Source: a virus
DNA: 43,180 nt
IMG/VR virus record: IMGVR_UViG_3300035698_002463
Coordinates: 1-43,180 of that record
Reading direction: 5' to 3' (one strand)
The translations under genes and the position numbers were made by a program. Under the pieces are notes generated by a model. The model was not told where the DNA came from. It saw nothing but the letters and a program-made list of their open reading frames with translations, and did not search any database. Positions 22,901 to 43,180 of the stretch are shown one piece after another. Numbering within the stretch: the stretch's first letter is position 1; every line of letters starts with the position of its first letter.

Positions 22901-24030
22901 ATCTAACTAAACAAGATTATAGAGAGAACATTGACTATGTATACGATACTAATGGTATTATCACATTTACTAATGATGAGAAATTACCATTTGGTAACGA
23001 GTATAGTGCCTATAAGAGATTCTTAATAGGTCTTGAATATGAATATACTCCAGAATGGTTTGATCTATCTGCTAATAGGACATTGTATGGTGGCACATCT
23101 GGAATCAATGTTGAATTAGCTGATAGATATCAGGAGCTAGAAGATGTTCTAGATCTGATTGAGGATTTTCCTCCAGAGATTCTTGTTCCTGTAGATTTCT
23201 ATTTAGATGATATCCAGGAAGATTATTCTGTAAAAACTGGTACTAAATACTATAGAAATGCTGGTTTATATAGCATACTAGATCCATGGCTAGAGAAGGT
23301 TAATAGGAATTCTTGGACTACTAGAGCGGTCATCCCAATTAAGAATCCAGAAGATTTAACCCTAGCAGGTATCCAAGAATGGGTTAGAAAAGGTAGCACT
23401 GTATCTGTTTCAGATACTCTTAGAGCGGCTAATGTGTTAGCTCAGGTAGATAATAAATTTATCGATTACTTTAGTTATCCAATGGCTTTCTCTAGTGGAG
23501 GTATTACGTTTACTGTTCCTGGTCAATGTTTCTATGCTGGTAAATTAGCTGTAAATGCTCTGCCTACTCTACCAACTAATCAAAGCCTTAGTAATGGTTT
23601 TAGACCATTAATTACAATGAGGAAAACATTAGTAGATAAATTAGTAACAGCTAGAGTTAATACTATTATTTATAATGATGGTATGAGAAATCCTTATGTT
23701 ATAGCTGACTTTGTTACTGGTGCAGCTTATGGTAGTGATTATAGTAGAGGTCTAAATCGAGAGATGGCTTGCGAAGCAGTGAAACACTGCAGGGAAATAT
23801 GGAATGAGTTTAAAGGAAAGGTTCAGAGTAGCAACTTGATGAAAGTCTTTGAATCTAAAATTAACAATGCTTTAAACAGTATTCCGGCTATCAAACAAGT
23901 TATGATTCAAATTAAACAAACTGAACAAATGAGAGTTAACGGTGAACTAAATCTAATCATAGATATTATACCATTAAACGAATTTAGACACTTAACAATT
24001 GATCTTTCCTTTAAGAGGGAATCAGAATAA
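19993..24030 (+). CDS. Tail sheath protein, unusually long
   Basis: The contractile outer sheath of the tail. The N-terminal 90 residues show the family pattern: SIYLIGTSEDGP, a turn, FGDISKGNLVRAVAELFD and a strand ending RIYCIRIGDG. The C-terminal region from about residue 1100 to 1345 is the conserved domain that attaches subunits to the tube and each other, with NSWTTRAVIPIKNPEDLT, a segment around GLNREMACEAVKHCREIW (about 1250) and the final beta hairpin ELNLIIDIIPLNEFRHLTIDLSF. At 1345 residues it is about twice the length of a typical sheath (roughly 400-700). The extra ~900 residues in the middle are beta-rich, aromatic and Asp/Tyr/Gly/Thr-rich, with no family recognised. They probably decorate the outside of the tail. 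AAAGGAG precedes the ATG. Confidence 0.9.
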   Translation: MPIPSVTTTYHDNNLGMLASTPNTRKSIYLIGTSEDGPMHEPVYIQSLGRAKEIFGDISKGNLVRAVAELFDVPGNKRIYCIRIGDGRRSSLSLKEQTGYSGINTPTTTSVGDISTALSIEALYPGEIYNSTVIGYEVLEDYGTVLYFYNPVTTTKSYFKYSTDADDTSVTIHNVKDLEDAMNNDPNIAPWYRIAANTITASFECWVLPATSNTDYGTAGYGKSWNTLIHTDGVLPSEWSDGFSWDGYTAQFSLYDRIVGGSGEADDDAIEHPGNVPVGWEVLRDGMVSGTGPVKATETAVNNINSFNKFYTLAYTGQTYVDSITPDNRLDPMPYNTRGTRGYTVGAMNIYSYDGLQLKRPNTSPVNEIIPTEEDISTWASEYSLWFENQPINIGAGNNGYLNFGCFLPPDFSGFPRYWARQIFPTETTDPLSKILIGTPFKTQSYEATGLTVNESTMYSPHDAQQYKLDAQTSGVYDYWFGVTREGQRTIGTDEFLTLPPFALVKGSTITREYPYEDYAVAYDESDTTKAPSAYFPVPAALWTSSNAHQYSAYFLGPLSPSYIYRNLAYDYEGSTYGTITSKPLLVTHNGTDNRYDVSFAVGTDIDVSPSAAMTTDPNYLRHSVRMETDKYFPDTDLDSDEGLNPSARACVLPVEKGVISTYGGFEVDEVTGKSASALEITLDNGDTKTLGASDNGSLIVFANRIYQYFNTGVAELGPTPSYYGYVAPVDMDGAYVILVPDALNTANAYHYAEILAGDGDYQFYTENYADNSIPRFEYSLDGSNWEEVEPRWISGIFWEDNGQLYPNDNNATNRLKVFFVGCDSTQAPRDGDSYEYLGFENTMWSQWKALWESEKVTYPTLTTRYPNLDTFFVAADGTVPAMTSIIEAEFLAWANDTVPPFMEVDKDGEYLTVKSDAYFRYSLITNKGHLKQCYIRTTASNSNRSDYYFIYGNRVLFGSVPTTKLIFSYLTKQDYRENIDYVYDTNGIITFTNDEKLPFGNEYSAYKRFLIGLEYEYTPEWFDLSANRTLYGGTSGINVELADRYQELEDVLDLIEDFPPEILVPVDFYLDDIQEDYSVKTGTKYYRNAGLYSILDPWLEKVNRNSWTTRAVIPIKNPEDLTLAGIQEWVRKGSTVSVSDTLRAANVLAQVDNKFIDYFSYPMAFSSGGITFTVPGQCFYAGKLAVNALPTLPTNQSLSNGFRPLITMRKTLVDKLVTARVNTIIYNDGMRNPYVIADFVTGAAYGSDYSRGLNREMACEAVKHCREIWNEFKGKVQSSNLMKVFESKINNALNSIPAIKQVMIQIKQTEQMRVNGELNLIIDIIPLNEFRHLTIDLSFKRESE

Positions 24031-24061: not shown

Positions 24062-24925
24062 ATGGGATTTAGACTAACTAATAACAAGTGGGTAGCTAAC
24101 CGCACCAGCTTTGCTGGTGCTGATATCCAAGTGTTGGCTGAAGATATTCGTTTAGGTGACCTTCAAGCTATCAGTGTTTCTGTTTCAAGAGAAAAGGGAC
24201 CTATCTATGTCTTAGGTAGTGCCACTCCGGTTAGTTTTTCTCGTGGTAAGAGAGGTATAGCCGGAACATTACAGTTTGCTGTATTTGATAGAGAAGCATG
24301 GTACAACATAATGTATGGTACAGAAGAAAATCATATTGCTACATATGCTAGGAAACTGACAGAAATTCAGATACCTGGTATGCAATATAATAATGTACCT
24401 TTGGCTCCCGGTGGAAGAAGTGATATTGTAGGTACTGGCGATTCTCCTATTCCTGGTGCAGGGGGAAGTGCTCCTGGAACAGTTTATGGAACAACCTATA
24501 CCAGTTCTGTACCTCTATCTACAGCATCTGGCGGTTTACCATATGAAGTTGGAGCCGCTGGCCCTAGTGATGAAAACATCTGGGAAATTGGTGTTGCTGA
24601 GTCATATTGTCAATATCCCGATCAGATTATGCCATTTGATATTTCTATCACTGGTCAGAATGAATATGCTCAGATGACAGTAGCACGAGTATTTGGATCT
24701 GAATTACTTAATATGGGTAGTTCTATCAATACAGATGATTTAGATCTAGCAGAAACCTATACTTATATTGCAGCTGCCTATCAGGGGTTTAAGCCAATAT
24801 ATTGGGAAAAGGATTTGGCTATTCCTGTCAATCGTTATCTTACTTTTGGTAAGCCTGGCAGTTTAACTGTTGGGGGTCTTCCTGGTGAAGGTTCAAGTGT
24901 TCCTTGGGCTCCATTTGTAGGTTAA
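24062..24925 (+). CDS. Tail tube protein
   Basis: A 287-residue protein directly after the sheath with a strong GGAGG ribosome site and a terminator behind it, the arrangement expected for an abundant tube protein. Its core matches the two longer proteins at 25400 and 26986: SFAGADIQV, SVSVSREKGPIYVLGS, GIAGTLQFAVFD, and later PFDISITGQNEYAQM followed by a strand. This is the pattern of a tube beta-barrel (gp19-like) in large myoviruses. A Gly/Pro/Ser-rich loop at about residues 115-165 interrupts it. It forms the inner tube through which DNA passes. That it is the main tube rather than one of the paralogues is inferred from its size, position and strong expression signals. Confidence 0.8.
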   Translation: MGFRLTNNKWVANRTSFAGADIQVLAEDIRLGDLQAISVSVSREKGPIYVLGSATPVSFSRGKRGIAGTLQFAVFDREAWYNIMYGTEENHIATYARKLTEIQIPGMQYNNVPLAPGGRSDIVGTGDSPIPGAGGSAPGTVYGTTYTSSVPLSTASGGLPYEVGAAGPSDENIWEIGVAESYCQYPDQIMPFDISITGQNEYAQMTVARVFGSELLNMGSSINTDDLDLAETYTYIAAAYQGFKPIYWEKDLAIPVNRYLTFGKPGSLTVGGLPGEGSSVPWAPFVG

Positions 24926-25015: not shown

Positions 25016-25028
25016 AGGAGATTCATTG
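25016..25028 (+). promoter_or_regulatory. Ribosome binding site setting a TTG start for the nuclease-like gene
   Basis: AGGAG at 25016-25020 is five bases before TTG at 25026. This spacing supports initiation at TTG, which keeps the whole N-terminal membrane segment in the product. Confidence 0.6.
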
Positions 25029-25412
25029 GTAGTTAATATTATAGCCTTATCATTATTAGTAATAACAATTTTAACTAACATAATTTTATATCACTATTTA
25101 AAGAAAACAAAAACTAACTTAGATAAGAAAGAATCTGAGAGGATTAAAATATTAGATGATCTTAGATCTGAAAGGACTAAACGTGGAATGATGATAGAGC
25201 AGATATTACCATTTAAAAAAGATATTGGATTTAACATAGATAATTTCAAATTTTTAGGACAACCAATAGATGGTATCGTATTTGAAGAAGATAAGATTAT
25301 TATAGTAGAATTTAAAAGTGGTAAAGCTCGACTAAGTAAGAAACAGAAAGAAATTAAAACACAAATAAACCAACATAAAGTAGAATTTAAGGAAGTGCGA
25401 TGTTCAGGTTAA
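25026..25412 (+). CDS. Membrane-anchored Holliday-junction-resolvase-like endonuclease
   Basis: A 128-residue protein with one hydrophobic N-terminal helix (about residues 4-24), a charged linker, and a C-terminal domain that matches the Endonuc_Holl family, related to archaeal Holliday junction resolvases of the PD-(D/E)XK superfamily. Visible active-site pattern: Glu58 in EQILPF, FLGQPIDGIVF with Asp82, and VEFKSGK with Glu95 and Lys97, followed by a basic helix. Cleavage of branched DNA is expected from the family but not proven. It starts with TTG, sits just after a terminator and overlaps the next tail gene by 13 bases, which ties it to the tail operon. A nuclease with a membrane anchor is odd here; it may act at the cell envelope during entry. 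Confidence 0.8.
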   Translation: MVVNIIALSLLVITILTNIILYHYLKKTKTNLDKKESERIKILDDLRSERTKRGMMIEQILPFKKDIGFNIDNFKFLGQPIDGIVFEEDKIIIVEFKSGKARLSKKQKEIKTQINQHKVEFKEVRCSG

Positions 25413-26983
25413 ACCCTAATAAGACTAGAGGTGCATACAGAGCATTTTCTGGAGTTGATATAATACCTGTAGTCTATGCTGCTGGAGAGACACTTATATT
25501 AGGCAATGTTCAAGTTGTATCTTACTCAGTACATAGAGAGACAGCCCCTGTTAGAGCTTTAGGGGTTGCTAGTAGAAAAGGTTCTGTTACTGGCACTAGA
25601 ACTATAGCTGGAACACTTGTATTTGTAGATTTTGATTATGGGGCTCTATCTGAAATAACAGGAAGATATCAACAAGACTATATGAATGATAATAGAATGA
25701 GATCATTACCTTTAGATATGATACCTCCTTTTGATTTAATTATAACTTACCAGAACGAATATAGTTCACTATCTTATCAAAGAATATTTGGCATTAGAAT
25801 TCAAGATGAGGGTAATACAGCAGGGATCAACCAACTATGGGGAGAAACTACTGTTAACTATACAGCAGATCATATAGATAGGATTACCCCAATATATGAA
25901 AGTGGACAGACTGCTAAATTTAACAATAGTATTTATTATGGTCGTTATGATCTAAATACAATGAGAAATAGTAATGGTGTTTATATTTCCCAAATGTTGG
26001 GGAATCTAAAAAATCTTCAAAGTATGAAAGCATCCTTATTAGCAGAAGTACCTAGTGCTAAAAAGACAGATGGTGAAAGTATACAAGATATTCTAACAAA
26101 GATTAATATTCAAATTAATTTAGTATATGAAGCTATGGAATACTATGACGAAGTAGATCCTTCTCAAGCATTGCAGGCCAACCCTTATCTGAATCGTGTA
26201 ATTGATACTGGGATTGAAACATATCACGATCATGGTGATCTAATAGAATATTTAAAGTCTTCTGATATTAACGAAGAAATGAAACAAAAACTATTGGGTT
26301 ATAGATCAGCAGCCCAACTTAAAAAATATACAGAAGATGAGCAAGGAGAGACAGGATTATATAAAGAGACTCAGACAACAATAGTATCAAATTCACTTAC
26401 TGATTCTGATACATCTAATACTAAGATTGATCAATCTGCTCCAGCTAATAAGATGTTCCAAGGGACTACACAAACAACAGATGAAGGAGTAGATGAAACA
26501 ATTCCAACTACAACCACTACAGATATGTTAGGAAACAAACCATATATGGTAAATTTATCTCAAAGTATATATGATAATCTAAAAAACAGTTTTAACTTTT
26601 TCAGTTTAGAAAAATTACAAGCTGCTACTTATCCTGCTACATATGATTTTGAAGATATAGCTGATGATATGTTTGATAAAGTACAACAATGTAAATTAGA
26701 TATAAATACTCTGATTACAATGTCAGACAGATCTCAAGATTATACAATTAATTCATCTGCTAGAGGCACATTAACTAATATCTTATCAAACCTTAATGGA
26801 ACAGAAATAACATTAAAGAAAACACAATTAATTGATTTATTTGAAAAGATACTTAATGGATCAATTATTACTAATCGAGTCAATACAAATAAAGAGACAG
26901 AAGATACTTCTCAAGACTCACTCTATCAGTGGAATACGGATCCATCTGGTAATCCTCTATTTGATCCAATAACTGGTGATTAA
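25400..26983 (+). CDS. Extended tail-tube paralogue, probably tail tip or tube initiator
   Basis: A 527-residue protein whose first ~175 residues are homologous to the tail tube protein: AFSGVDIIPV, YSVHRETAPVRALG, TIAGTLVFVDFD, and PFDLIITYQNEYSSL. The remaining ~350 residues are an added helical and Thr/Asp-rich region with no recognised family. The ATG has AAGGAAG just upstream and overlaps the nuclease gene by 13 bases. Tube-fold proteins with extra domains commonly form the first rings of the tail at the baseplate hub (compare T4 gp48/gp54 in role), so a tube-initiator role is likely, but the sequence alone cannot say which end of the tail it occupies. Confidence 0.75.
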   Translation: MFRLNPNKTRGAYRAFSGVDIIPVVYAAGETLILGNVQVVSYSVHRETAPVRALGVASRKGSVTGTRTIAGTLVFVDFDYGALSEITGRYQQDYMNDNRMRSLPLDMIPPFDLIITYQNEYSSLSYQRIFGIRIQDEGNTAGINQLWGETTVNYTADHIDRITPIYESGQTAKFNNSIYYGRYDLNTMRNSNGVYISQMLGNLKNLQSMKASLLAEVPSAKKTDGESIQDILTKINIQINLVYEAMEYYDEVDPSQALQANPYLNRVIDTGIETYHDHGDLIEYLKSSDINEEMKQKLLGYRSAAQLKKYTEDEQGETGLYKETQTTIVSNSLTDSDTSNTKIDQSAPANKMFQGTTQTTDEGVDETIPTTTTTDMLGNKPYMVNLSQSIYDNLKNSFNFFSLEKLQAATYPATYDFEDIADDMFDKVQQCKLDINTLITMSDRSQDYTINSSARGTLTNILSNLNGTEITLKKTQLIDLFEKILNGSIITNRVNTNKETEDTSQDSLYQWNTDPSGNPLFDPITGD

Positions 26984-26985
26984 TT

Positions 26986-28791
26986 ATGCCTTATAGAGAT
27001 AAACCATCAACAGATATCAGTAGAGCCCCTTTCTTAGAATATCAGCAGAAATATTATTCAGGTGCAGATCTTCAAATTTACTTTGGCTCTATTTGGTTAG
27101 ATGAAGTAGTCTTCTTAGAATATCAAGTTATCAATGATAAGAAACCAATTTTTGGTTATACTTCTAGTAATCCCGATGCAATAGCTAGAGGCCATGTTTT
27201 TGTTACTGGTACAATGGTTATTAACTTTACTAGAACTCCTTATCTACAGACTATCATTGATTATATACGCAGTGAAAAAACATTAACAGAATCATATGAA
27301 GATAATGTTAAAGGACTAATTGACCAAACTCTACAGGAAGAGATGGCAGCTAATACTGTCAACTATTATAAATATGCTCATGCTGATTTAGCTTATCCTG
27401 TTGGTTATATAGAAGGTTCTGAGATAGCAGATGAATATAATGAGATAACTACCGAACTCAATAAACTTCTAGCTGAAAAGCAAGCTCTTATTCTAGAAGA
27501 CCCATTAATTCAATATCCAGAACATAGCAGTTATAGCACACTGGCGGCTCTAGAAACAGAAATAGGAAGTTGGCAAACTAAACTATATGCTAGTGGAGAC
27601 TATGATATTAGAGGTTTCAATACTCTTACCGATACAGAAAATATAAATAAGCCCCCCTTATTTATGAATACTAAAACATCTCCATATGGAGCATTCTATA
27701 AAACATCTGATGGTAAAGTGGTACCATTTACTATCCAAAAGAATATAGATTCAGCATTACAAAAAAGAGACCCTTCTAATAATAGCCAGTTAGTAACTCA
27801 GACAACATCACAAGATCTTGATCAGTTCATGTCTTATTTAGAACAAAGATTGAAAGGTGGTCCAGAGACAAAACAAGCTAGAATTAAAAGAGTAGATGAA
27901 CATGATATTAAGATAGATGAATTCTATGAGAAGTATGTTGAAAACAATAGTTTTGATATAACCATTACATATGGGGATCAAAATAGTGTAGACAATTACT
28001 CTACAGTAAAAACTATTAATGATATACATTTTATAGGAGAATCTCAAACTCTTAGTACTGATTCTATGCCAGTACTACAAAAATATTCTTTTATAGCTAG
28101 AAACATTGATGAGCGACCACTATCAAGATTAATTGAAGAAACTGAAGCCATCACAGAGAATCAAATGGATTCAGCTAATACTATTCAATTAGGAGATACT
28201 CAATTTAAAGAAGTTGAATGGTTATATGGTCATTTAGAAGATAGTGCCCACTCTTATAATCACTATCAAGATTATGAACCAATTGTTGTAGCTGTGCCAT
28301 TACAGCCACCAGAAAATGATACAGATCTACATTTTCAAATAGATGATGAAGAGATTACTAAGACGAAACAAGATGTTAATATTAGATATAATCCAATTAT
28401 CAAAACATGTCAACTACCTGGTGAAGAGAAACATCAAGTATATTTTGGTGTTATAGCTAGTCTGATTGACCCATCATATGTTCAATCAAAGTTAGTAGAT
28501 AATCCAAGATCAACAGATCCTCATTATTCAAATTTGGATAATGACAATATTAATGTTGCTCCTAATAGACCAGTTAAATTTAGAGTTAGATTATTTGTAA
28601 TTAAAAATAGCGATGATCTATTAGATGAATTTAAAACTAGTTACGATACTGAACTAGATACTCTTCAACAAATGTTCCCTCTTGAAAATAATGATGAAAA
28701 TGATCCTGATGTAATTGATTATGATGAAACCACAAATGATATGAAAGAACAATTACGAGATCTAAAAGAATTCTTTAAAACTGAAGGATAA
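26986..28791 (+). CDS. Second extended tail-tube-like protein
   Basis: A 601-residue protein that shares a more distant version of the tube signature: YYSGADLQIYFG, YQVINDKKPIFGYTS, HVFVTGTMVINF near the N-terminus, and SFDITITYGDQ around residue 325 where the barrel resumes. The inserted region between (about 90-310) is helical and charged. The C-terminus is acidic and may add a further domain. It lacks a good ribosome site and starts two bases after the previous stop, so coupled translation is probable. As a third tube-fold protein in a row, it fits a stack of different rings at the tail tip. Family assignment is by pattern similarity only. Confidence 0.68.
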   Translation: MPYRDKPSTDISRAPFLEYQQKYYSGADLQIYFGSIWLDEVVFLEYQVINDKKPIFGYTSSNPDAIARGHVFVTGTMVINFTRTPYLQTIIDYIRSEKTLTESYEDNVKGLIDQTLQEEMAANTVNYYKYAHADLAYPVGYIEGSEIADEYNEITTELNKLLAEKQALILEDPLIQYPEHSSYSTLAALETEIGSWQTKLYASGDYDIRGFNTLTDTENINKPPLFMNTKTSPYGAFYKTSDGKVVPFTIQKNIDSALQKRDPSNNSQLVTQTTSQDLDQFMSYLEQRLKGGPETKQARIKRVDEHDIKIDEFYEKYVENNSFDITITYGDQNSVDNYSTVKTINDIHFIGESQTLSTDSMPVLQKYSFIARNIDERPLSRLIEETEAITENQMDSANTIQLGDTQFKEVEWLYGHLEDSAHSYNHYQDYEPIVVAVPLQPPENDTDLHFQIDDEEITKTKQDVNIRYNPIIKTCQLPGEEKHQVYFGVIASLIDPSYVQSKLVDNPRSTDPHYSNLDNDNINVAPNRPVKFRVRLFVIKNSDDLLDEFKTSYDTELDTLQQMFPLENNDENDPDVIDYDETTNDMKEQLRDLKEFFKTEG

Positions 28792-31633: not shown

Positions 31634-32023
31634 ATGCCAGAGGAAAATATCACTGAAACAGAACTAATTGATCAAGATCTATTCTTTTCTACTAGACCTA
31701 GTGCTGAAGCAATTGCTGATCTGAAATCAAAACATCAGCAAGAAGGTTCTCATCTCTATCTAATTAATTTTGGATCTGATGAACCAAGATATGTTATTAT
31801 AAGACGAGTTAACTCTAGGATATATAGAGAATGGCAACAGAATGTTGCTAATAGTATGGTGGAAATAGATCAAGGAAAAAACATGCTGAGTTTCTTTATT
31901 GTGTATCCTCAGATGTTAGATTCTATCTACGATGCAATGTTACCAGGAGAAATAGATAACCTAATCCAGATTATTTCGGAAAAACATGGATATGTTCAAT
32001 ACCCAATTATAGAAAAACTATAA
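31634..32023 (+). CDS. Tail-assembly-chaperone-like protein
   Basis: A 129-residue acidic protein with a strong GAGGAGG ribosome site. The layout resembles small tail assembly chaperones: a strand pair ending YVIIRRVNSRIYREWQ, a helix, then FFIVYPQMLDS and LPGEIDNLIQIISEKHGY, comparable to the (x)YP...L..G....L...I...SG pattern of those proteins. These chaperones coat the tape measure protein before tube polymerisation. Position shortly before a giant tape-measure-like gene agrees. The match is by pattern and context, not a strong motif. A terminator follows, so it may be made in excess over downstream genes, as chaperones are. Confidence 0.62.
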   Translation: MPEENITETELIDQDLFFSTRPSAEAIADLKSKHQQEGSHLYLINFGSDEPRYVIIRRVNSRIYREWQQNVANSMVEIDQGKNMLSFFIVYPQMLDSIYDAMLPGEIDNLIQIISEKHGYVQYPIIEKL

Positions 32024-32103: not shown

Positions 32104-32646
32104 GTGGACATATATAAAGAACAGAAAGATATCATTCTAAATAGCTATCAAAAAAGAATGATTATTGATCTAAATAAGAAGGGATTTGAAATAATTAAAA
32201 TTGATATTGGTGATGTATATCTCCTATGTAGATCAATGACTGTGCGTGAATATATCCACTATGTTACTGGTATAAGTTCAGATAATCAATTAGCAAGATG
32301 TTTATTTATAGGAGATCCACAAGATTTCTTTGATCTAAAAGATGGACTACATCAAACTATTGTAGATAACGTCTATCATAATATGACCCATCCTTTAGAT
32401 GGTAAGATACATGATAGTATTGTTGAAAAAGGAAAGATCTCTACTGAAATAGGTAATGGTTTATCTTTATTAGCTAATGTTGTAAGTGAAATCGGCTCTA
32501 TTTTAGATCTACCAGCTAAGGACGCTCTAATATATCAATCAGCAGCAACTTTCATGGAATATATTATTAAGAGTAAACCACATATAAACAAAAATCCTAA
32601 TAGCGAATATGAAGAGGAAACAGTTAGTTTCACATCAGCTAAATAG
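32104..32646 (+). CDS. Second tail-assembly-chaperone-like protein
   Basis: A 180-residue protein with a GTG start; AGGAG at 32094-32098 is five bases upstream. The N-terminal half has the segment VYLLCRSMTVREYIHYVTG followed by LARCLFIGDPQDF, again similar in layout to tail chaperones (aromatic-Arg-x-hydrophobic-T..EY, then a helix and a short Pro segment). The C-terminus is helical with an acidic tail. It ends directly at the ATG of the giant protein. In many phages the tail chaperone pair is made by a -1 frameshift; here the second protein is a separate gene with its own start, separated from the first by a terminator. Assignment is tentative. Confidence 0.58.
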   Translation: MDIYKEQKDIILNSYQKRMIIDLNKKGFEIIKIDIGDVYLLCRSMTVREYIHYVTGISSDNQLARCLFIGDPQDFFDLKDGLHQTIVDNVYHNMTHPLDGKIHDSIVEKGKISTEIGNGLSLLANVVSEIGSILDLPAKDALIYQSAATFMEYIIKSKPHINKNPNSEYEEETVSFTSAK

Positions 32647-35600
32647 ATGTTAAAATTTAGAGATACATATGTTTCACCTTATAATAATAGATTAAGAGGT
32701 TATACCCAACTACCTAGAAGAACTACTACTACATCTGATCCTGAGCAGAAATCTAATCTAAAGCGATTTATTATTGGTAGTACTCTTAGTATATTAGCAG
32801 TTGGTGTTGCTACTAAGTTTGCCAGTCCTGCTGTTGGAAAAGTAGTTCGTAATATGGCTACTAGAGGAACTGGTAAACTAGCCAGATCTGCTTCTAGTGC
32901 TTTAGGAGCTAATGCTTTAAAAGGTAGATTTACTGACATATTTAGATTATCTTCTGGTTTTAGAAAGATGGAAGGTAGAGCTGCGTTAGCTACAGCTGCT
33001 CCAATTAAAGCATTAGAAGCATTTCGTAAAACCACGAAAGCAGCCGGCACTGGTCGTATAAGAAACCTATATAATTTCTGGTCTCCTGAGCAAATTGGAG
33101 GTTATAGTAGAGCTCAAAGAGCTGGTGGTTATTTCTATAAAAGAACAATAGAAAATGCTGCCACTCTACCGATCTACTATGGTGTAGATAGAGTAGCCAA
33201 TTTAAGAGGAGGAAAACAACCTAAGTGGTATGATGTCAAAGGTAATCTGAAAGATTTTGCACAATATGCTGCTTTTGATGTAGCTTACTCTTACTTACCG
33301 GGAGCAGTAGGAGCTTCGACTGCTATACTTGGAAGAAAGGGTCTTAATACTATTTCAAAGATAACTGGTTCTGATACTGGTAAATATGTTTTTGAAAAGG
33401 CTCTAAAAACAGCCTCTAAATCTAGAAAGTATTATGGATCATTTACTAATGCACTTAAGAACACTTTACATAATATAAACAAAAGACCAGAAAGAGTTCT
33501 ACCTATAAGAAGAACTAATAATAGATTTAAAAGATATAACTATGGTCCACATATTAAAGGATATGGATCTAAACTTAAATCTATGAAAGATTATTTCCAA
33601 GGGGAATATCGTTCAACATTCCAGAATATCAATTCTAGATCATATATACATAATTCGGGAACAGTGTTTGGATCATCTCATCTACAAGAGTTTTTAAAAG
33701 CAACTGATAAAATAACCCCACAATCATCTACTCCATCAGAAGTGAAAGAGTATGTTGGGGGGCTCTTAAAAACATTTGAGAAAGGCCCCAAAACCTTTAG
33801 AGAGAAACTATTAGGAATAGAACGTAATACGTTAGCTAAGAGTCAGGTTAAAGAGATAAAGAATGTTTTACAGAATACTGGGTTTGATAATGATGAGATT
33901 AGACACTATATAACTCAAGGATTATATCAACAAGAAGGTATTTTTAAACATAGAGGCAAAATCTATGATTTACAAAATTTAGATAAAAATCATGTTGCTA
34001 AATATCTAGATAATAAACTTAAAGATTCAAGATTTAAGTTTTTTGGTAACATGTTGGGTGTAAATCGATTCTTAAATAAAAGAATCAAGACTCCATTTGA
34101 AACATTTATACCTGACACAGCTGGTAAACAATATATATCCCCACACTTAGGAAACTTAGGAACTGGTGTTAAAGTAGATAGGGATATTATTACACAGAAT
34201 GGGACTAGAAGATATATTAGAAGAGCCACGGCTATCAGAAGAGATGAAAGTCTATGGTATATAGCAAGAGGTTTAGTTGATAATGGTGAAGATGAGGCTG
34301 TCTCTAAGTTAATAAAATACGATAGTCAAAGTAAATATATATACGAAGCTGGACATAGTAGAGGGAAACGAACTATGTCAGATCTATATAAATATGCTAA
34401 AGGTGAATTTAGAAACGAAGAAAAAATATCATCAGAGACATTACTACATAGAACAGCTGTCAGTTTTAAAAATTCGATTGTTGGAAAGTTCTTTACTAGT
34501 AAGAAAAAATCATTTTCAAGTATATTAGATACTATAGCTTCCGGTGATGAAATAACAGATTCAATGGATGTTCTTAGAGAGAACTTCTTCCATTTCAAAA
34601 AAATATATGGAAACATGGTAGATCAATCTATATCATCTCTAGATCATCCTGGCGTTAAAAAAGCTTATCAACAACTTTTAACTGATAATAATGTTGATAA
34701 AGCTAAGGATATATTTAATCTAAATAATAACGACTTAGTTGAATTCTCTCAAGAAATAATTAATAAAAATAAAGATCTGGCCTATGTTACTAAATGGCAG
34801 AACCATATCAATCAATTATCTGAATCAGCTAAATTCTCTCCTGCTAAAGATTTAGGAGAATATCTAGGTGAAGCTCCTAGCAAAAGAAAGATATTGGAAT
34901 TATTTGCTATAGGTGGACAACTTAAAGACTTGAATATTTCTACTAGCCAGATTGTTGATAAATTACCTAAGACTACTGGTTTAGTTGACGAGATGTTTAT
35001 TGGAGGATTAGATACATTAACAGGAATTAAAAAAATTGACCCCATTAGTCCTAATCAGATCGATGACCTAAAAGATTTCTATCTAAAAGCTAAAAGCCAA
35101 AAATCTAGATGGCGAGAATTTGCTGAATATTATAGAACTGAACGTAATTTTGCTGGAAAGATTAAACAAGCAATAACCATAGACGATCCGATGCAAGTTA
35201 TCTATGGTGGTGATTTACCATTTAGATTTATATCAAGTAAATCCAATGGTGTAGCCGAAATAGCAGGATCTTATTTTAATATGTTCAAAGGAGCATTAAC
35301 AAAATATGATCCTAATAAACCCAGTATTAAGAAATTACCTATCATGTCTAATGCTTATAGTTGGTGGTCTGAAAAGACTTCGACTATGAAACATTTAGCT
35401 GGTTTAGTTGGTGTTGGTCCTTCCAAATTAGAGATTACTCCAGATATTGCCCACACTAATATGGAGTGGGTTGGTAGAAGAGTAAAACAAATGACAGCAT
35501 TGGCAGTTGGTTATACAGTAGCAGATGCTTTAGTTGATGAACTGGGTATATTTGATAATACTGCTTTAGATGAAGGGTTAAGTGTTTATGCTGGAGAAAA

Positions 35601-38517
35601 GGTAGCACAAGCTAAAGTATTAGGTGCTACTATAAGAGATACATTAGGTATTACACAAGGAGCCCAATATTTAGAAGGACTAATGCCCGGATCATCTACT
35701 CTACTACCAGCAATGGCTCTAGGAACCATAGGAGGAATGTCTGGGGGTATAACTGCTCCTATAACTGCGGCTTTGATAAGTGGGGCTCTTGGACAATCAG
35801 CTAGATCTGTTGGACTAGTAACTCCATATAAAAGCGCACAAGATCTAAAAGATGAATATAGTGGAAAGAAATTAGTAGGTCGTAAACGACATCGTTGGTG
35901 GACATTATCAATGGAACCTTTTGCTGGTTCTGGTGTAGATTATTATATGCCTTCTTGGTTATCTAGACTAAGAGCACAATATGATTATACCCCATCGGGA
36001 AAAGGCTCTAAAATGCAATCATTGTTAACTAGACCTTTACCTATTATTAATTGGAATCCTATTAGTAGTATTATTGGTGGTAAATATTCAGCTGAAAGAC
36101 AACACTATTTTACAAGACCAGGAGTATATTCAAGCACACCTTTTTCAGATATCCCATTTGTTGGCCCTCCTAGCTCAGTAATAGGTAGAGCATTGAAACC
36201 AAGACAAATGATGCATCAAAATATCTTAAGAACTGCACAAGAAACCAACCCTCCACCAATAAATCCAAGTATTCCTGGATCAAGTGGGGCTTTACTCACA
36301 TCCACATATTACCAAACAATGGTTAAAATGATTGGTTTTAGTGGATATAAAATTCAACAAATTGGTGGTAGATATCCCTTGTCTCCAGATCTTACTTATG
36401 AGGAAGCAGGACGAGAATATTTAATGAGCCAGAAATATCATCAAGCAAGTTTTGGCGATATTGCTCTTAGTGGAACAGAATTAGGTCGTCGTTTTATACC
36501 AGATGAAAAATCCACATTACAATATAATCCGATTCCTAATATGATCGGGGCCCATCTACCAGAAGAATTTACCTCAGGTAACCCTTATGCTAGAGTTGAA
36601 TATGCAGATGCTAGATTACCTGGCTATGGTTATGAAACTCTCCATAATGTTAGCCACGAATTTCCTGTTGGTTCTTCTACTTTAGGTTATTCTATCCCTG
36701 AATATGTAAAAAAGATGATTGGTCTAAAACCAATTGATGATGAAGAACTATATGAAAGCTCTGTACTTGGAAAAACTATTCACCATCAAATTCAAAGTCG
36801 TTTCCAATTAGAGAATAGGTTAGTTGCTTCTGAAGAGATGGTTTATGATGCTGCTAATGATGTGGTTGGTTTTGTTGATGCTATTCTAAGAGGTGAAAAT
36901 GGTGAAGAAACAGTAACAGAGATTAAGACATTTTCAGAAGACAATCCTCCAAATGCTCCAAGAAGTAAACACATACACCAATTGAACTTCTATTTGGCTA
37001 TGCTAGGAAAGCAAGAAGGAGAACTATTATATCTTCCTAGAGGTCTCCAAGACTATATGTCAGACTCAACTATGAAACATGCTAGACGTTTTAACGTGAA
37101 GTTAGATTTACAAATGTTAGAACGGGATATGAAGATACTTAAACTAGCAAGAATGAAAGCTAAAAAGGCTATAGAGAATAAGATAGGATTAAGAACAGGT
37201 AGTAGTTATGGTTGGTTAGATAGATTCAAAATCTTATCTGATGTATCTCCTACCTCTGATGCATATAGAAGAGCTGAAATTCTTGTTCAAACACAAATGA
37301 AATTTGGAAAACTTAGTCAAGATGAGATCAAAGAATATAATTATTATAAACAATTAAGAAATAAAAGACTTCGTAGATATGATGTCTATCCTTATAGATT
37401 TAGTGGACAGAGTTTCATGACAGATACTCCTGGAATTAAATTAGTTGAGCCCGACTCTGGAGATGATACCTATTTGGCTAAGAATCTTAGACATAGTGAA
37501 ATGAAGTTTATTAATTATTATAATGATAATCCAGAAATGCGTCCTTCTTATGATTATAGTCTTCCAGAAAGAATGATTGGTAGAGCATGGGAACTTGGAT
37601 CACACAGTAAAACTATTTGGCATAGAAAATTTTTGAATCAATATACTCCTAGACAGTTATATGAAATGCAACACATTTATGGTGATGATTTTAGACCTTG
37701 GAATGAGCCAATACAATCTTGGGTAAAACCCCATATGAGAGAGATGGTTTCTGGAAACGTAATTCAGGGTATGTATAAAGGAGCTGCAGCTGGTACTGTT
37801 GCCTATGGTCCTGCTGGTGGTATGATAGGAGCAGCAGTAGGTTTGGGCTCTAATCTAACTAATAAGATGGTTGAAAGTATTAAAGGTAATCCATATATAC
37901 CTCAGAATGTTACATTTAGAAATGAACTAAATGAATATATGGATCAGATGGAATATTGGAAATCTCAATATGAACTACAAACAACCGGAGATCCTCAAGC
38001 TTATACAAGAATGCACGAAACAATGATTGGTGCTGAGACTAGATCGCAGTTATTTAAAGCTATGCCTACTCCAGAAAAGAGTTATTTGGGAGATTTTATA
38101 GATGAAAAAGATCCTATTGAACAAAGAAAAATATATCAAATAGCTCCTAGATATTTAAAACCAATACTAGCTAGGGAATGGGGTCTTCCAAGAGATAAGA
38201 TAGAAGCATATACTCCCACTATGCCTAATGCCGATTGGAGTGGTTGGGATGAATCTGTTCCTACAGATGATATTAAAGCTTCGTTAGTTAGAAACGAAGG
38301 ATATAATCTACATGATTTTGGTGTAGGCTATGGTTATGATAAGATCAAAATGTCAGATGATTATCTGGCAGATCTAGCTATAAAAGATGAACCACCTGTA
38401 GACACAAAACTAAACGAAAATGTAATTATTGATTATGTTAAAAAATTAGTTGGTGGTGCAGGTAGAGTAAGTGTGAGTGGTAGAGATAGCAATATGATAG
38501 AGGTTATACTTACATGA
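32647..38517 (+). CDS. Giant virion protein in tape-measure position with RecB/Cas4-type nuclease domain
   Basis: A 1956-residue, basic protein following the chaperone-like genes, where a tape measure is expected. Hydrophobic, Gly/Ala-rich stretches at about 41-60, 1020-1052 and 1704-1740 resemble membrane-inserting parts of tape measures. Residues about 1370-1455 form a complete PD-(D/E)XK nuclease site of the RecB/Cas4 kind: GKTIHH (His1379/1380), GFVDAI (Asp1411), TEIKT (Glu1425, Lys1427) and HQLNFYL (Gln1445, Tyr1449). Other parts are helical and Lys/Arg/Tyr-rich without a recognised family. It starts directly after the previous stop with no clear Shine-Dalgarno site, and its stop overlaps the next start (ATGA). 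It may be ejected into the cell with the DNA. Tape-measure status is inferred from location and size. Confidence 0.85.
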   Translation: MLKFRDTYVSPYNNRLRGYTQLPRRTTTTSDPEQKSNLKRFIIGSTLSILAVGVATKFASPAVGKVVRNMATRGTGKLARSASSALGANALKGRFTDIFRLSSGFRKMEGRAALATAAPIKALEAFRKTTKAAGTGRIRNLYNFWSPEQIGGYSRAQRAGGYFYKRTIENAATLPIYYGVDRVANLRGGKQPKWYDVKGNLKDFAQYAAFDVAYSYLPGAVGASTAILGRKGLNTISKITGSDTGKYVFEKALKTASKSRKYYGSFTNALKNTLHNINKRPERVLPIRRTNNRFKRYNYGPHIKGYGSKLKSMKDYFQGEYRSTFQNINSRSYIHNSGTVFGSSHLQEFLKATDKITPQSSTPSEVKEYVGGLLKTFEKGPKTFREKLLGIERNTLAKSQVKEIKNVLQNTGFDNDEIRHYITQGLYQQEGIFKHRGKIYDLQNLDKNHVAKYLDNKLKDSRFKFFGNMLGVNRFLNKRIKTPFETFIPDTAGKQYISPHLGNLGTGVKVDRDIITQNGTRRYIRRATAIRRDESLWYIARGLVDNGEDEAVSKLIKYDSQSKYIYEAGHSRGKRTMSDLYKYAKGEFRNEEKISSETLLHRTAVSFKNSIVGKFFTSKKKSFSSILDTIASGDEITDSMDVLRENFFHFKKIYGNMVDQSISSLDHPGVKKAYQQLLTDNNVDKAKDIFNLNNNDLVEFSQEIINKNKDLAYVTKWQNHINQLSESAKFSPAKDLGEYLGEAPSKRKILELFAIGGQLKDLNISTSQIVDKLPKTTGLVDEMFIGGLDTLTGIKKIDPISPNQIDDLKDFYLKAKSQKSRWREFAEYYRTERNFAGKIKQAITIDDPMQVIYGGDLPFRFISSKSNGVAEIAGSYFNMFKGALTKYDPNKPSIKKLPIMSNAYSWWSEKTSTMKHLAGLVGVGPSKLEITPDIAHTNMEWVGRRVKQMTALAVGYTVADALVDELGIFDNTALDEGLSVYAGEKVAQAKVLGATIRDTLGITQGAQYLEGLMPGSSTLLPAMALGTIGGMSGGITAPITAALISGALGQSARSVGLVTPYKSAQDLKDEYSGKKLVGRKRHRWWTLSMEPFAGSGVDYYMPSWLSRLRAQYDYTPSGKGSKMQSLLTRPLPIINWNPISSIIGGKYSAERQHYFTRPGVYSSTPFSDIPFVGPPSSVIGRALKPRQMMHQNILRTAQETNPPPINPSIPGSSGALLTSTYYQTMVKMIGFSGYKIQQIGGRYPLSPDLTYEEAGREYLMSQKYHQASFGDIALSGTELGRRFIPDEKSTLQYNPIPNMIGAHLPEEFTSGNPYARVEYADARLPGYGYETLHNVSHEFPVGSSTLGYSIPEYVKKMIGLKPIDDEELYESSVLGKTIHHQIQSRFQLENRLVASEEMVYDAANDVVGFVDAILRGENGEETVTEIKTFSEDNPPNAPRSKHIHQLNFYLAMLGKQEGELLYLPRGLQDYMSDSTMKHARRFNVKLDLQMLERDMKILKLARMKAKKAIENKIGLRTGSSYGWLDRFKILSDVSPTSDAYRRAEILVQTQMKFGKLSQDEIKEYNYYKQLRNKRLRRYDVYPYRFSGQSFMTDTPGIKLVEPDSGDDTYLAKNLRHSEMKFINYYNDNPEMRPSYDYSLPERMIGRAWELGSHSKTIWHRKFLNQYTPRQLYEMQHIYGDDFRPWNEPIQSWVKPHMREMVSGNVIQGMYKGAAAGTVAYGPAGGMIGAAVGLGSNLTNKMVESIKGNPYIPQNVTFRNELNEYMDQMEYWKSQYELQTTGDPQAYTRMHETMIGAETRSQLFKAMPTPEKSYLGDFIDEKDPIEQRKIYQIAPRYLKPILAREWGLPRDKIEAYTPTMPNADWSGWDESVPTDDIKASLVRNEGYNLHDFGVGYGYDKIKMSDDYLADLAIKDEPPVDTKLNENVIIDYVKKLVGGAGRVSVSGRDSNMIEVILT

Positions 38518-41500
38518 TACCAGACAAAAATACAGAAGATTATCTACATCGGAGAAGATCTCCCAGTCAAAGAGCATGGGCCACCAATGCTTTCTTATTG
38601 ATGGGTGGAGCTATCTATCTCAAAAAAGGTCATCTAAAGCCTAATCTAGAAAGTGCATACGATTTCATAGATACCATTTTAGATCCCGCAGCTACAGATA
38701 GGATGATAGAAAAACTATCTCAGAATCCTGTTCAAACATATAAAGCCGCTATTAAAAGACCAGATCTCTCTCAGGTATTCTTAGTAGATCCTACTGAGTC
38801 TAAAATAATAGGACAACAGTATGCTGAAACTGCTACTAATAATGCTATGAGTGAGATTAAAAGACATATTGAATATATCTCTAAGAATAAAACAGCTTAC
38901 GATATTAGCGAAGCTTCTGACCCAATATTGGTTTTCCAGGAAACAGTAGATGCTTATCTTAATAGCCCAGATATTGGTAAAATGTCTAATGGTGATAAAC
39001 GAGTAAGAGCTTTGGCTAAGAAAGCTATTAGTCAGAATGACATCCCATCATTTCTTGAAGAAGCTAGAGCCTTTCCTAAGTTCCTAGTATTGTTTAAGAA
39101 TAAGTTAAGAAATCAAATTAAACATGTTAATCAAGAAATCAATTATAATCTTATAGACGGAGAACATCCTAACATATTTAAATTTCTTGGTTTTGAGAAA
39201 ATGACAGAAACTCCTTTTGATAGATTAAATAAGGAGATTATTAATCCTGCATATAAAGCAGGTCAAAGTATCTTTCAAGATATTCCCGAAGAGACTAGAA
39301 AAAAGATAGGATTAACAAAATATACTTTCTGGAAAGGTGTACATGAATCTAGAGCCGATGATGAACTAGATATATTATTTAAAGGATTAGAATCAAAAGA
39401 TCAAAGAAAGGTTCATGAATTCATAGAAAGGTTACATCATTTTGGTATTCATAAAACACCAAATGGTATGAATGTTGATCAGATTGCTAAAGGACCCAAT
39501 CAACAGAAACTAGGAGAATTCTTTGAGTATAGTAATCAGGTTGGTATCCAAAGTAATTTAGATATGGTTGATGATAGAGTCTTAAAGAAGTTAGCAAATA
39601 ATTTCTTAAAGACAGATTATGGGCGCAAATATCTTATTCCTATGAAAGGAGTTACTCCAGATCGGGCTCTATCTTACTTATTAACAGACGAACAATTTAT
39701 ACAATTTGTAGGCAAAAAAGCAATACCTACAGGAAGTATGATGGGGGATATTTCTGTTCAAGGAATACTTAATAATAATCCTTATAATAATATTATAGAA
39801 TCATCTAAGACATTTAAATTTGAAAATCCTAGAAAGCTATCAAGATTTATTGAAGAAGGTCCCGGTGCTGGTAATCTGAGGAAAACAGATCCAATAGACA
39901 TAATTCTAAAAACTAACTACGGTTCTAGGTTTAAGAAATTATTAAAAATTAGAACCTTTGAAACACAAGATGATTATTTAAATGCTATGCTTAATGCGAA
40001 TGATAAAAATCTTATTAAGAAAGGCGAAGCAAATATAACTCATAAAGTATTAACTTGGGCCAGAAATAAAGGAATTGGTGATGAGTTAGATATTAGATAT
40101 GAAGTAACTAAAGATAGAACACAAGGAACTAAATTATTTTATACTGTTAGTATATTAGGAGGTGAAGGTAAAGAATTTCAATTAGCAGAAGAAAGGTCGT
40201 TTACTGGTGTAATAGCATTAGCTGATCAATATGATATACGTTACAAGGGAGGAGTTCCATATAAAGCTAAAGGCAGAGCTTCATATGGGAAGTTCCAATT
40301 ATCAAATGATATCCAAATAGAAACTCATGCTACAGGAATTAGTAAAGTGATGGATGCTTTAGTAGAATATGATCCAGTAGCTAAGAAATTTGTTAATGGT
40401 GAAAGTGAGTTAATGAAAGCAGCTAAACAACATATATATGGAAGAAACAATATTCATATATTTGGCGATCCTATAGTAATGGATGCTATGAGTTTATATG
40501 AAACATCTGTTGTTGTAGAAGAATTTGCGTTGCCTTTAGGCAAACAGAAACTAAAAAATAAAAGTGCTAGAGCCACCTCTAATATTATAAGAAGTGAGGC
40601 AGAACAAACATTAAGATTTATATCAGATTTAAAGAGTAGAAAAAGATTTGGTGTTATAGACTTTGAAGATGTTATGTTAAATATTCGTGGTCTACAACAA
40701 ACTGGCCGCCCTTATGAAGTTGGAATTTCTGTCTATGAGCCAATTATGAATAATGGAAGATTTCAATTAAAAGAAGTATCACACACCCAACTGTATACAG
40801 ATTTATCTGATATATTAACAAATAAAGCAGCTAAACAACAATTTATTAATCAGAGATTGAAGTTAGGTTTTACAGAAGAAGAGACTATAAGATTAATGGA
40901 CGAATCTTTATCTAGTTCTACTGCTATTAGAAGCAAAGATTTCTATCATGAAATGAATAAAATAATGGATGATGCTGGTATCACCAGAATATTACATAAA
41001 TCTCCACATGATCAACAAGTTCTATTTCAAGAGCAGGCTAAAGAAAAAGCAGAAAAGCTTTTTATATTAGATAGTCTAGGTCTTAATAGTTTTGATGTTC
41101 AAAACTTCTATAGAATCCAAAAAAGATTTGGTATAAGAGGTATAGGTGTTGGTAGTGCATATGGACAAGAACAATTTAATATGGTTACTCAAAGATCTAT
41201 CAGGAAAGCTAAAGCAACTCATAGTAAAGCTGTTAGTAGAGGCGACAAGATAAATAAAATATTTCATTCACACTCTAGTGTTCCAGATAATATGAATGAA
41301 ATAGAAGTCACTAATATTGGGTTAGCAAAGATTGCAGATATAGACGACTATCAACGTCAATTAGAAGATATTGTGGCTCTAACTCAAATGAAAGTTAGTG
41401 ACGATTCATACGATCATAAAGTTAGTGAAATATTACGAACTTATGGTATTAGAAGAGTAAGTTCTGCCAATGCAATTAGTAAAGGAATCATTGCTATAAC

Positions 41501-43180
41501 TCCCAGTCGTGGATATATGTCTAAAGAATTTGCTAAATTACCTTTAGGAACAGATCCTTATGATTTTCTATTTGGGGATTTAAATAGAAGTGATAGAGGA
41601 CTATATCAAAAGAAACCAATGACTTTTAGTGTAGCGCAGGTTCAGAGAATCAGAAGAAATATTAATAGATATCATAGACTTAATCGTGAAAGATATGAAA
41701 CTAACTATGCTCAATCAGTAAAAGAATTTGATCCAAAATTACTTAGAAGAAATATTAAATATGATATAGATCCATTTAATCCAAATATTACAACACTTTC
41801 TGCTCATATAAAAAGACAACAATTAAATAATTTATTTATAGACAAAAGTCTTGGACAGAGAACTGGAACTCTGCAATTACCTACTTATGTTATGTATGGA
41901 AGTACTGCAAGAGGCATGGGTCAAGGATATGCGCCAGCAAGCATGAGACCCAAATTCTTGGATCTCAAAGAGACTAGAACAATTACTTTAAAGAATATTA
42001 AAAACATTGACACTAAGAACTTTAATAGTGGCGATGTCTCTATGGATAAAAGTTTACTTAAATTAACTAATAGATATTTTGATTTGATTGATAATTATAA
42101 GAAACAAGGTTTTGATCTACAAGAAGCTCAAAAGAAAACTAGATCTAAAATGATTGAAGAATTAGAAGATGGGTTAAAATTTGTTACAGATACTATATCT
42201 GTAACTGAAGAGGGTGTGCGTAGAAGGGAAGCTAATGAAAAAATCTATAATTTTATGATTAATCAAAATCAAAAGGAAACAATTTTATCTTATCAAACAG
42301 GAGTAGAAAGAAATTATAGTTTATTTAATGTTGGATATGGTAAAGGTTCTTTAAGTTCTGTTGAAGGACTAGAAGATTTTATTCTTCCAGACGTATCTGC
42401 TCTTAAAGGTGAAATAGGAAATATTGCTAGCGCAAAAGTCAAGAGTATAGATGCTAGAATCCTAGGTATGGTAAGTACTATTCAAAGAGTTGATCCTGAT
42501 TCCGCAGATATATTAATAAATATTAGAAAGAAACTACACACTATGATAGCTGAAAAAAGCTCTCATAGTGTAGCAGCTACTTCTGTAGGATATGATAATA
42601 TTGAAACAATGATATATCATTCAAATTATGAGCATATGAGTAAATCCAAGATGATGCAGATGGGTTTTACAGAAACCGATCTTAACAAATTCTTTAATAC
42701 TAAAATTACAGATTTATTAAACATAAATAAATCAGATCCTAGATATGGTATGATTGGTAATCAAACAACTTTTGATTTAATGCATAAACAAGGAGTACAA
42801 AAGTTTGATGTTGCTTGGGATGCAAATGTATTAAAACATAAGTTAAGACTGATGGAAAAACCAGATCTATATAATTTTGCACGATTAAATGGTATCAATA
42901 CTATTCCTAATAATAGTAAATTAAATGATTATAGAGATAATATATATAATTATTTTTTTGATGAGAATGATAAAAATAGAAACCGTTTAAAAATACATGA
43001 TATTCAAGAAGATCCTGGAAGTGGAAAGTTAAGACCGGCTTTATATATGTATCAAACATTCTTTGGTAAAAAAGGTACACCTATGCCTGGTTGGACTGGT
43101 AGCTATATAATGGATGCATCAGGAAAACCATCTAGGACAGGATTTAAAGCAAATCCTGATGTATTAGCTCACTGGTATTC
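38514..43180 (+). CDS. Giant uncharacterised virion protein, truncated by the window end
   Basis: An uninterrupted reading frame of at least 1555 codons, beginning at an ATG that overlaps the previous stop (ATGA) and still open at the last base. The N-terminus is basic with one short hydrophobic stretch (about residues 24-36). The rest is helical, Lys/Arg/Asn/Asp-rich with Tyr- and Ile-rich strands, similar in composition to the giant protein before it. No clear enzyme motif was found. A segment near residues 712-735 (VIDFEDV, then EVGISVYE) superficially resembles the first motif of DnaQ-type exonucleases, but no later motif is seen. Close coupling with the upstream gene suggests the two act together in the tail or are delivered together. 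Confidence 0.88.
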   Translation, partial: MIPDKNTEDYLHRRRSPSQRAWATNAFLLMGGAIYLKKGHLKPNLESAYDFIDTILDPAATDRMIEKLSQNPVQTYKAAIKRPDLSQVFLVDPTESKIIGQQYAETATNNAMSEIKRHIEYISKNKTAYDISEASDPILVFQETVDAYLNSPDIGKMSNGDKRVRALAKKAISQNDIPSFLEEARAFPKFLVLFKNKLRNQIKHVNQEINYNLIDGEHPNIFKFLGFEKMTETPFDRLNKEIINPAYKAGQSIFQDIPEETRKKIGLTKYTFWKGVHESRADDELDILFKGLESKDQRKVHEFIERLHHFGIHKTPNGMNVDQIAKGPNQQKLGEFFEYSNQVGIQSNLDMVDDRVLKKLANNFLKTDYGRKYLIPMKGVTPDRALSYLLTDEQFIQFVGKKAIPTGSMMGDISVQGILNNNPYNNIIESSKTFKFENPRKLSRFIEEGPGAGNLRKTDPIDIILKTNYGSRFKKLLKIRTFETQDDYLNAMLNANDKNLIKKGEANITHKVLTWARNKGIGDELDIRYEVTKDRTQGTKLFYTVSILGGEGKEFQLAEERSFTGVIALADQYDIRYKGGVPYKAKGRASYGKFQLSNDIQIETHATGISKVMDALVEYDPVAKKFVNGESELMKAAKQHIYGRNNIHIFGDPIVMDAMSLYETSVVVEEFALPLGKQKLKNKSARATSNIIRSEAEQTLRFISDLKSRKRFGVIDFEDVMLNIRGLQQTGRPYEVGISVYEPIMNNGRFQLKEVSHTQLYTDLSDILTNKAAKQQFINQRLKLGFTEEETIRLMDESLSSSTAIRSKDFYHEMNKIMDDAGITRILHKSPHDQQVLFQEQAKEKAEKLFILDSLGLNSFDVQNFYRIQKRFGIRGIGVGSAYGQEQFNMVTQRSIRKAKATHSKAVSRGDKINKIFHSHSSVPDNMNEIEVTNIGLAKIADIDDYQRQLEDIVALTQMKVSDDSYDHKVSEILRTYGIRRVSSANAISKGIIAITPSRGYMSKEFAKLPLGTDPYDFLFGDLNRSDRGLYQKKPMTFSVAQVQRIRRNINRYHRLNRERYETNYAQSVKEFDPKLLRRNIKYDIDPFNPNITTLSAHIKRQQLNNLFIDKSLGQRTGTLQLPTYVMYGSTARGMGQGYAPASMRPKFLDLKETRTITLKNIKNIDTKNFNSGDVSMDKSLLKLTNRYFDLIDNYKKQGFDLQEAQKKTRSKMIEELEDGLKFVTDTISVTEEGVRRREANEKIYNFMINQNQKETILSYQTGVERNYSLFNVGYGKGSLSSVEGLEDFILPDVSALKGEIGNIASAKVKSIDARILGMVSTIQRVDPDSADILINIRKKLHTMIAEKSSHSVAATSVGYDNIETMIYHSNYEHMSKSKMMQMGFTETDLNKFFNTKITDLLNINKSDPRYGMIGNQTTFDLMHKQGVQKFDVAWDANVLKHKLRLMEKPDLYNFARLNGINTIPNNSKLNDYRDNIYNYFFDENDKNRNRLKIHDIQEDPGSGKLRPALYMYQTFFGKKGTPMPGWTGSYIMDASGKPSRTGFKANPDVLAHWY

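Follow-up and report, generated by a model that had tools for sequence, protein, structure and literature searches.

Few nucleases have been documented as components of phage tails. In the lineage of 0305phi8-36, a jumbo phage of Bacillus thuringiensis, the one literature precedent that we found for a nuclease-type domain in a virion protein is the staphylococcal-nuclease (SNase) domain of the BtI1 baseplate-hub protein (PMC2147016). Here we analyse a 43,180-nucleotide stretch of viral DNA (IMG/VR record IMGVR_UViG_3300035698_002463, positions 1 to 43,180; hereafter the window) in which a protein of 1956 residues, encoded in the tail region, carries a nuclease domain of the PD-(D/E)XK class. 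Like the BtI1 hub, this putative virion protein has a nuclease-type domain fused to it and belongs to the same phage lineage, but the protein is a different one (the hub is gp147) and so is the nuclease fold (PMC2147016).

Three further systems offer points of comparison. The tape measure of phage P23-45 can carry a fused virion RNA polymerase that is injected and is proposed to work at the entry pore; it too is an enzyme in a giant tail protein, but a polymerase instead of a nuclease, and in a non-contractile tail (PMC10770324). The polyvalent proteins of phages are described as virion-packaged enzymes for early conflict with the host; in the sections of that survey considered here ParB-like DNases, PBECR and RadC domains are named, whereas RecB, REase and tape measure gave no hits (PMC5512222). 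Finally, mass spectrometry of Bacillus phage BpSp virions detected a Holliday junction resolvase (PMC4870245). In the open-access literature searched we found no earlier report of a Cas4/lambda-exonuclease-type domain in the tail protein treated here, although one may exist elsewhere. The interest of the present case lies in a nuclease that occupies one fixed position in a giant tail protein and keeps its catalytic residues across deeply diverged phages; in some phages, it would follow, the virus particle probably carries the finished nuclease to the cell.

The nuclease domain and its carrier protein

The open reading frame at 32647-38517 aligns colinearly with CDS0026 of Moorella phage MTATph1 and with gp031 plus gp033 of Bacillus phage KLEB27-3, and shows weaker similarity to ME3_35 of an Acinetobacter phage. 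The KLEB27-3 homologues are annotated as 'structural protein' and ME3_35 as 'virion structural protein', the latter by homology to 0305phi8-36. In 0305phi8-36, orfs 143 and 144 encode the two tail chaperones, orf146 is assigned as the tape measure, mainly by a correlation with length, and orf147 encodes the hub (PMC2147016). Given this order and the synteny of the window, the 1956-residue protein corresponds in position to orf145, immediately ahead of the gene assigned as tape measure. The preliminary description of the window had placed the nuclease in a structural protein at the tape-measure position: the family annotation bears out the structural character, while the position was off by one gene. 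The carrier protein itself was ruled out as the assigned tape measure, the orf146 equivalent being the next gene (PMC2147016; synteny).

The main features are the following.
32647-38517, plus strand: giant tail-region protein of 1956 residues, homologue of the 0305phi8-36 gp145-type virion protein by colinear homology
36652-37203, plus strand: PD-(D/E)XK insert, residues ~1336-1519 (~184 residues), with evidence from alignment, AlphaFold2 and Foldseek
36781-36783, plus strand: His1379, motif I
36877-36879, plus strand: Asp1411, motif II, G-x-x-D
36919-36927, plus strand: Glu1425-Ile-Lys1427, motif III, [D/E]xK
36979-36993, plus strand: Gln1445-x3-Tyr1449, QxxxY motif

All residues proposed earlier as the active site (H1379, H1380, D1411, E1425, K1427, Q1445 and Y1449) are found in place between nucleotides 36781 and 36993. 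Their order alone says little, an equally loose motif occurring in 147 of 2000 shuffles of the 1956-residue protein. The class assignment comes from profile and structure comparisons. The family phrog_1706 ('CRISPR/Cas system associated') matches residues 1374-1510 (E=1.2e-11), and a sequence search of the PDB returns 4ic1, the crystal structure of Cas4 SSO0001 (E=1.9e-6), and 4r5q (E=0.012). The NCBIfam model cas4 (TIGR00372) reaches E=6.8e-7, yet with 29.3 bits it stays under the equivalog cut-off of 65, and Pfam Cas_Cas4 scores 14.9, below its cut-off of 22.7. An AlphaFold2 model of the insert, computed with 14 aligned inserts as input, has a mean predicted local distance difference test score (pLDDT) of 87.8 and a predicted template modelling score (pTM) of 0.83. 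Compared with the PDB by Foldseek, it finds 4ic1 first (E=1.1e-7, probability 1.00) and also lambda exonuclease (E=1.9e-6, probability 1.00), with further matches to MGME1, LHK-Exo, AdnAB, Dna2, EXO5 and RecE. The suggestion of a RecB/Cas4-type domain thus held up under the profile search and structure prediction proposed for checking it, the fold being that of PD-(D/E)XK enzymes. By sequence and model the domain genuinely belongs to the PD-(D/E)XK domains of the Cas4/RecB/lambda-exonuclease type; its active site is intact, and nuclease activity is predicted.

With Cas4 (SSO0001, PDB 4ic1) and with lambda exonuclease, RecE and MGME1 the insert shares the fold and the H-D-[D/E]xK-QxxxY residues. 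It differs from Cas4 in falling short of the equivalog cut-off, in being embedded in a putative virion protein and in lacking cysteines. Cas4 is defined by an iron-sulphur (Fe-S) cluster held by four cysteines; none of the 17 inserts examined contains a cysteine, and therefore none can hold such a cluster. A cas1/cas2 neighbourhood was not encountered either: among the matches listed, which do not cover every open reading frame, the flanks are phage tail genes.

Insertion site, distribution and conservation

The family was gathered by alignment-based scans of viral contigs and comprises 54 non-redundant proteins, the relatives being numbered as L loci. Scans of viral contigs with a single protein (the nuclease domain, the whole window protein or the Moorella homologue) yielded nothing usable, and a genome-contig scan gave one relative only, with an empty site. 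Window residues 1335 to 1521 correspond to residues 1343 to 1351 of the MTATph1 protein, which makes this a clean insertion. It is carried by 17 of the 54 family members; in the other 37 a short linker marks the empty site. Sequences on both sides of the site, and a scaffold farther downstream, are recognisable throughout.
36613-36645, plus strand: upstream anchor RLPGYGYETLH, kept with and without insert
37219-37257, plus strand: downstream anchor DRFKILSDVSPTS, kept with and without insert
37564-38346, plus strand: conserved C-terminal scaffold, used as the handle for family searches

The anchors, as RLPGxGYExL and DRFKILADVAP, are conserved across the 54 proteins. On the family tree three changes suffice to explain where the insert is present, two of them forced by well-supported branches; the insert is therefore old, and was gained a few times or else lost. 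The window protein is placed with L054, L053, L070 and L071; the branches in this group are long and its support is modest.

All catalytic positions (H1379, D1411, E/D1425, K1427, Q1445 and Y1449) are intact in 11 of the 17 inserts, that of the window included, so that the homologue alignment, named beforehand as the result that could overturn the assignment, upholds it. Across the diverged intact copies, identity to the window is only 23-37%. The L028 insert has lost the histidine alone, and five inserts (L019, L051, L054, L070 and L071) are decayed, with several catalytic residues lost together. For the intact pair L047/L048 the non-synonymous divergence (dN) is 0.12 in the insert and 0.13 in the flanks, with a synonymous divergence (dS) of 1.65 in the insert. 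When the decayed L051 is compared with L047, dN rises to 0.74 in the insert, against 0.34 and 0.44 in the flanks. We rely on the dN contrast because dS is near saturation. Judged by these divergences, purifying selection acts as strongly on intact inserts as on their flanks, and the contrast, drawn from a single decayed pair, points to catalysis as what selection maintains.

One relative deserves separate mention. The 218,948-base record L056 carries an intact insert, and its genes for proteins of 218, 265, 1930 and 2537 residues, followed by a peptidase_M23-containing protein, fit gp143-gp147 of 0305phi8-36 in size and order. From this gene match L056 is very probably 0305phi8-36 itself, which would then carry an intact insert. 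Whether a phage injects a nuclease is directly testable, because the domain is very probably present in a model phage that is in culture and whose virion proteome has been published. The L056 protein agrees with that of the window in gene position, colinear sequence, insertion site and intact residues; it differs in that the nuclease insert is longer, an extra segment lying between the motifs, and in a degenerate SNase-like domain downstream, which is missing from the window protein. Our open-access search found no report of a nuclease in the gp145-type protein of 0305phi8-36.

By eye, an SNase-like OB domain without the usual catalytic DxPE is present downstream of the insertion site in most relatives (L002, L003 and L005-L031) and is missing from the window protein. 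A straight swap between this domain and the PD-(D/E)XK domain was considered and dropped, several relatives having both. Two mobile-type sequences were also seen in this protein family. In L003 (12458-13554) an HNH endonuclease gene, probably in an intron, splits the KLEB27-3 homologue just upstream of the nuclease insertion site; and the C-terminal half of the nuclease-bearing L053 protein has, by eye, an intein-like sequence (cysteine start, terminal HNS) downstream of the insert.

Proposed role and alternatives

On balance, though without great assurance, we lean towards the following reading: in a jumbo myovirus of the 0305phi8-36 lineage, the tail carries an accessory nuclease that acts on DNA ends; it is delivered along with the machinery for DNA entry and works on DNA in the cell just infected. 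The fold, the intact active site, the fixed insertion site and the selection on the insert are observed. Membership of the virion would follow from the annotation of relatives, from synteny and from the statements in PMC2147016, where 55 virion protein genes of 0305phi8-36 were identified by mass spectrometry and only orfs 143 and 144 near the tape measure are non-structural. In the sequence of events that we propose, the giant tail protein would have acquired at one permissive site a PD-(D/E)XK domain of the Cas4/RecB/lambda-exonuclease type without Fe-S cluster. As part of this protein, the nuclease would be built into the tail; both it and the giant protein encoded next, the one with an RNA-polymerase core and/or a DEDDh exonuclease in many relatives (see below), would be held close to the DNA path. 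Upon infection the nuclease would be exposed at the host membrane, or passed through it, with the entry apparatus, and would act on DNA inside the infected cell. Known members of this nuclease fold group are mostly end-acting. The job of the insert may be an accessory one in conflict, either damaging host or competitor DNA or blunting a DNA-based defence; the patchy presence and repeated inactivation of the domain fit such a function better than a universal step. By analogy with P23-45, the RNA-polymerase core in the adjacent protein of many relatives makes delivery plausible.

A broader proposal, which we hold more tentatively and rate at less than an even chance, is that the lineage delivers a set of tail-borne enzymes, with the nuclease in one giant protein and the RNA-polymerase core and/or DEDDh exonuclease in the next, acting at the entry pore, ahead of any phage gene expression, on the DNA of the host or of rivals or on that coming in. 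The observations suggest that the tail proteins of this lineage serve as platforms for exchangeable enzymes.

Several points weigh against the accessory, delivered nuclease. In five of the 17 inserts catalytic residues are gone while the fold is retained, and the survival of these decayed copies in frame implies that the fold may also serve a purpose other than catalysis. In L054/L055, L070 and L071, the closest relatives of the window protein, the insert is decayed. A nuclease placed next to the channel for DNA would risk cutting the phage's own genome. The presence of gp145 in virions is taken at second hand from published proteomics of the lineage, and for delivery, activity and target we proceed by inference only.

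The main alternative, unlikely in our estimate, though the least so of those considered, is that the nuclease processes DNA ends during entry: it would resect the phage genome from its ends as it comes in, much as lambda exonuclease or RecE do, and so allow the terminal repeats to anneal. The nearest free end at entry would be the phage's own, and the fold neighbours (lambda exonuclease, RecE, MGME1 and Dna2) are end-dependent exonucleases of recombination and repair. A terminal repeat is described for the 0305phi8-36 genome in a figure legend of PMC2147016. For a step required in every infection, however, 37 empty sites among 54 and five decayed inserts would be odd.

It is more doubtful still that the captured fold serves the tail protein structurally, as a DNA-binding or packing domain. 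The five decayed copies (listed above) do stay in frame and keep the positions that define the fold; the 11 diverged copies, however, preserve all six catalytic positions in spite of their low identity to the window, and divergence of the insert is raised only where the active site has been lost. Slightly less probable again would be a nuclease of the assembly phase, acting late in tail or head assembly or in DNA cleanup and present in the virion only incidentally. The gene does lie in the late structural block, and T4 offers a precedent in gp4, a nuclease that is associated with the virion and required for packaging (PMC7824862); against this, the domain sits in a giant protein linked to the tail chaperones, not in a head-completion protein, and most relatives dispense with it. 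A selfish or accidental insert, intein-like or homing, was considered and rejected as very improbable: homing elements do occur in these loci (the HNH gene near the site in KLEB27-3, the intein-like sequences in L053 and in the window terminase), but the 1956-residue protein has no intein-splicing match at E<=1 in the search that reports one in the terminase, the Cas4/RecB-type fold is not that of a homing family, and the clustering on the tree needs only three changes, with the insert under purifying selection.

The neighbouring giant protein and other genes of the window

The gene after the carrier and those before it include the following.
38514-43178, plus strand: start of the next giant protein, 1555+ residues, continuing past the end of the window; corresponds in position to gp146, the assigned tape measure
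31634-32023, plus strand: putative tail assembly chaperone 1, by a weak XkdN-like tail assembly chaperone match (Phage_TAC_5, E=0.023) and position/synteny
32104-32646, plus strand: putative tail assembly chaperone 2, by position/synteny and weak similarity
19993-24030, plus strand: tail sheath, 1345 residues
24062-28791, plus strand: three tail-tube-type paralogues (24062-24925, 25400-26983 and 26986-28791)

In relatives, the protein at the tape-measure position has a region with invariant R and P (RxP) and DxDxD. All PDB matches listed for the profile of this region are RNA polymerase beta'-type chains, the best being the PhiKZ polymerase (7.1e-5). The region is detectable in most complete neighbours (L004, L005, L014, L017, L021, L028, L036, L044, L047, L048, L050 and L051) and was not detected in L056, L002, L012 and L054; in the window it is not visible, because the protein is cut off at 1555 residues. 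These sequence matches suggest that an RNA-polymerase core is frequent in the assigned tape measures of these phages, and that many relatives have a tail-borne virion RNA polymerase. MTATph1 CDS0027 contains a DEDDh exonuclease domain (RNase_T 5.4e-5, phrog_192 5.3e-11), as do many other relatives. In the window protein at 38514-43178, residues ~714-870 (VIDFED...HKSPHD...DSLGL) resemble a DEDD exonuclease; this region has no PDB or NCBIfam match, its model has a pLDDT of 37, and the exonuclease queries from relatives do not reach the window protein.

Upstream of the carrier gene the window encodes terminase, portal, sheath, the three tail-tube-type paralogues and the two chaperone-like genes. 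The successive paralogues recall the arrangement in KLEB27-3, and two of them are much enlarged (527 and 601 residues); the PHROGs that they match are labelled 'major head protein', and their KLEB27-3 relatives 'tail tube protein'. Between two of them, at 25026-25412, lies a gene for a 128-residue protein with a hydrophobic N-terminus and an Endonuc_Holl domain (related to Holliday junction resolvases; Pfam 3.9e-15). The large terminase (2414-5281) has an intein-like region inside it, matching the Pfam intein splicing domain at 1.2e-5, below the cut-off.

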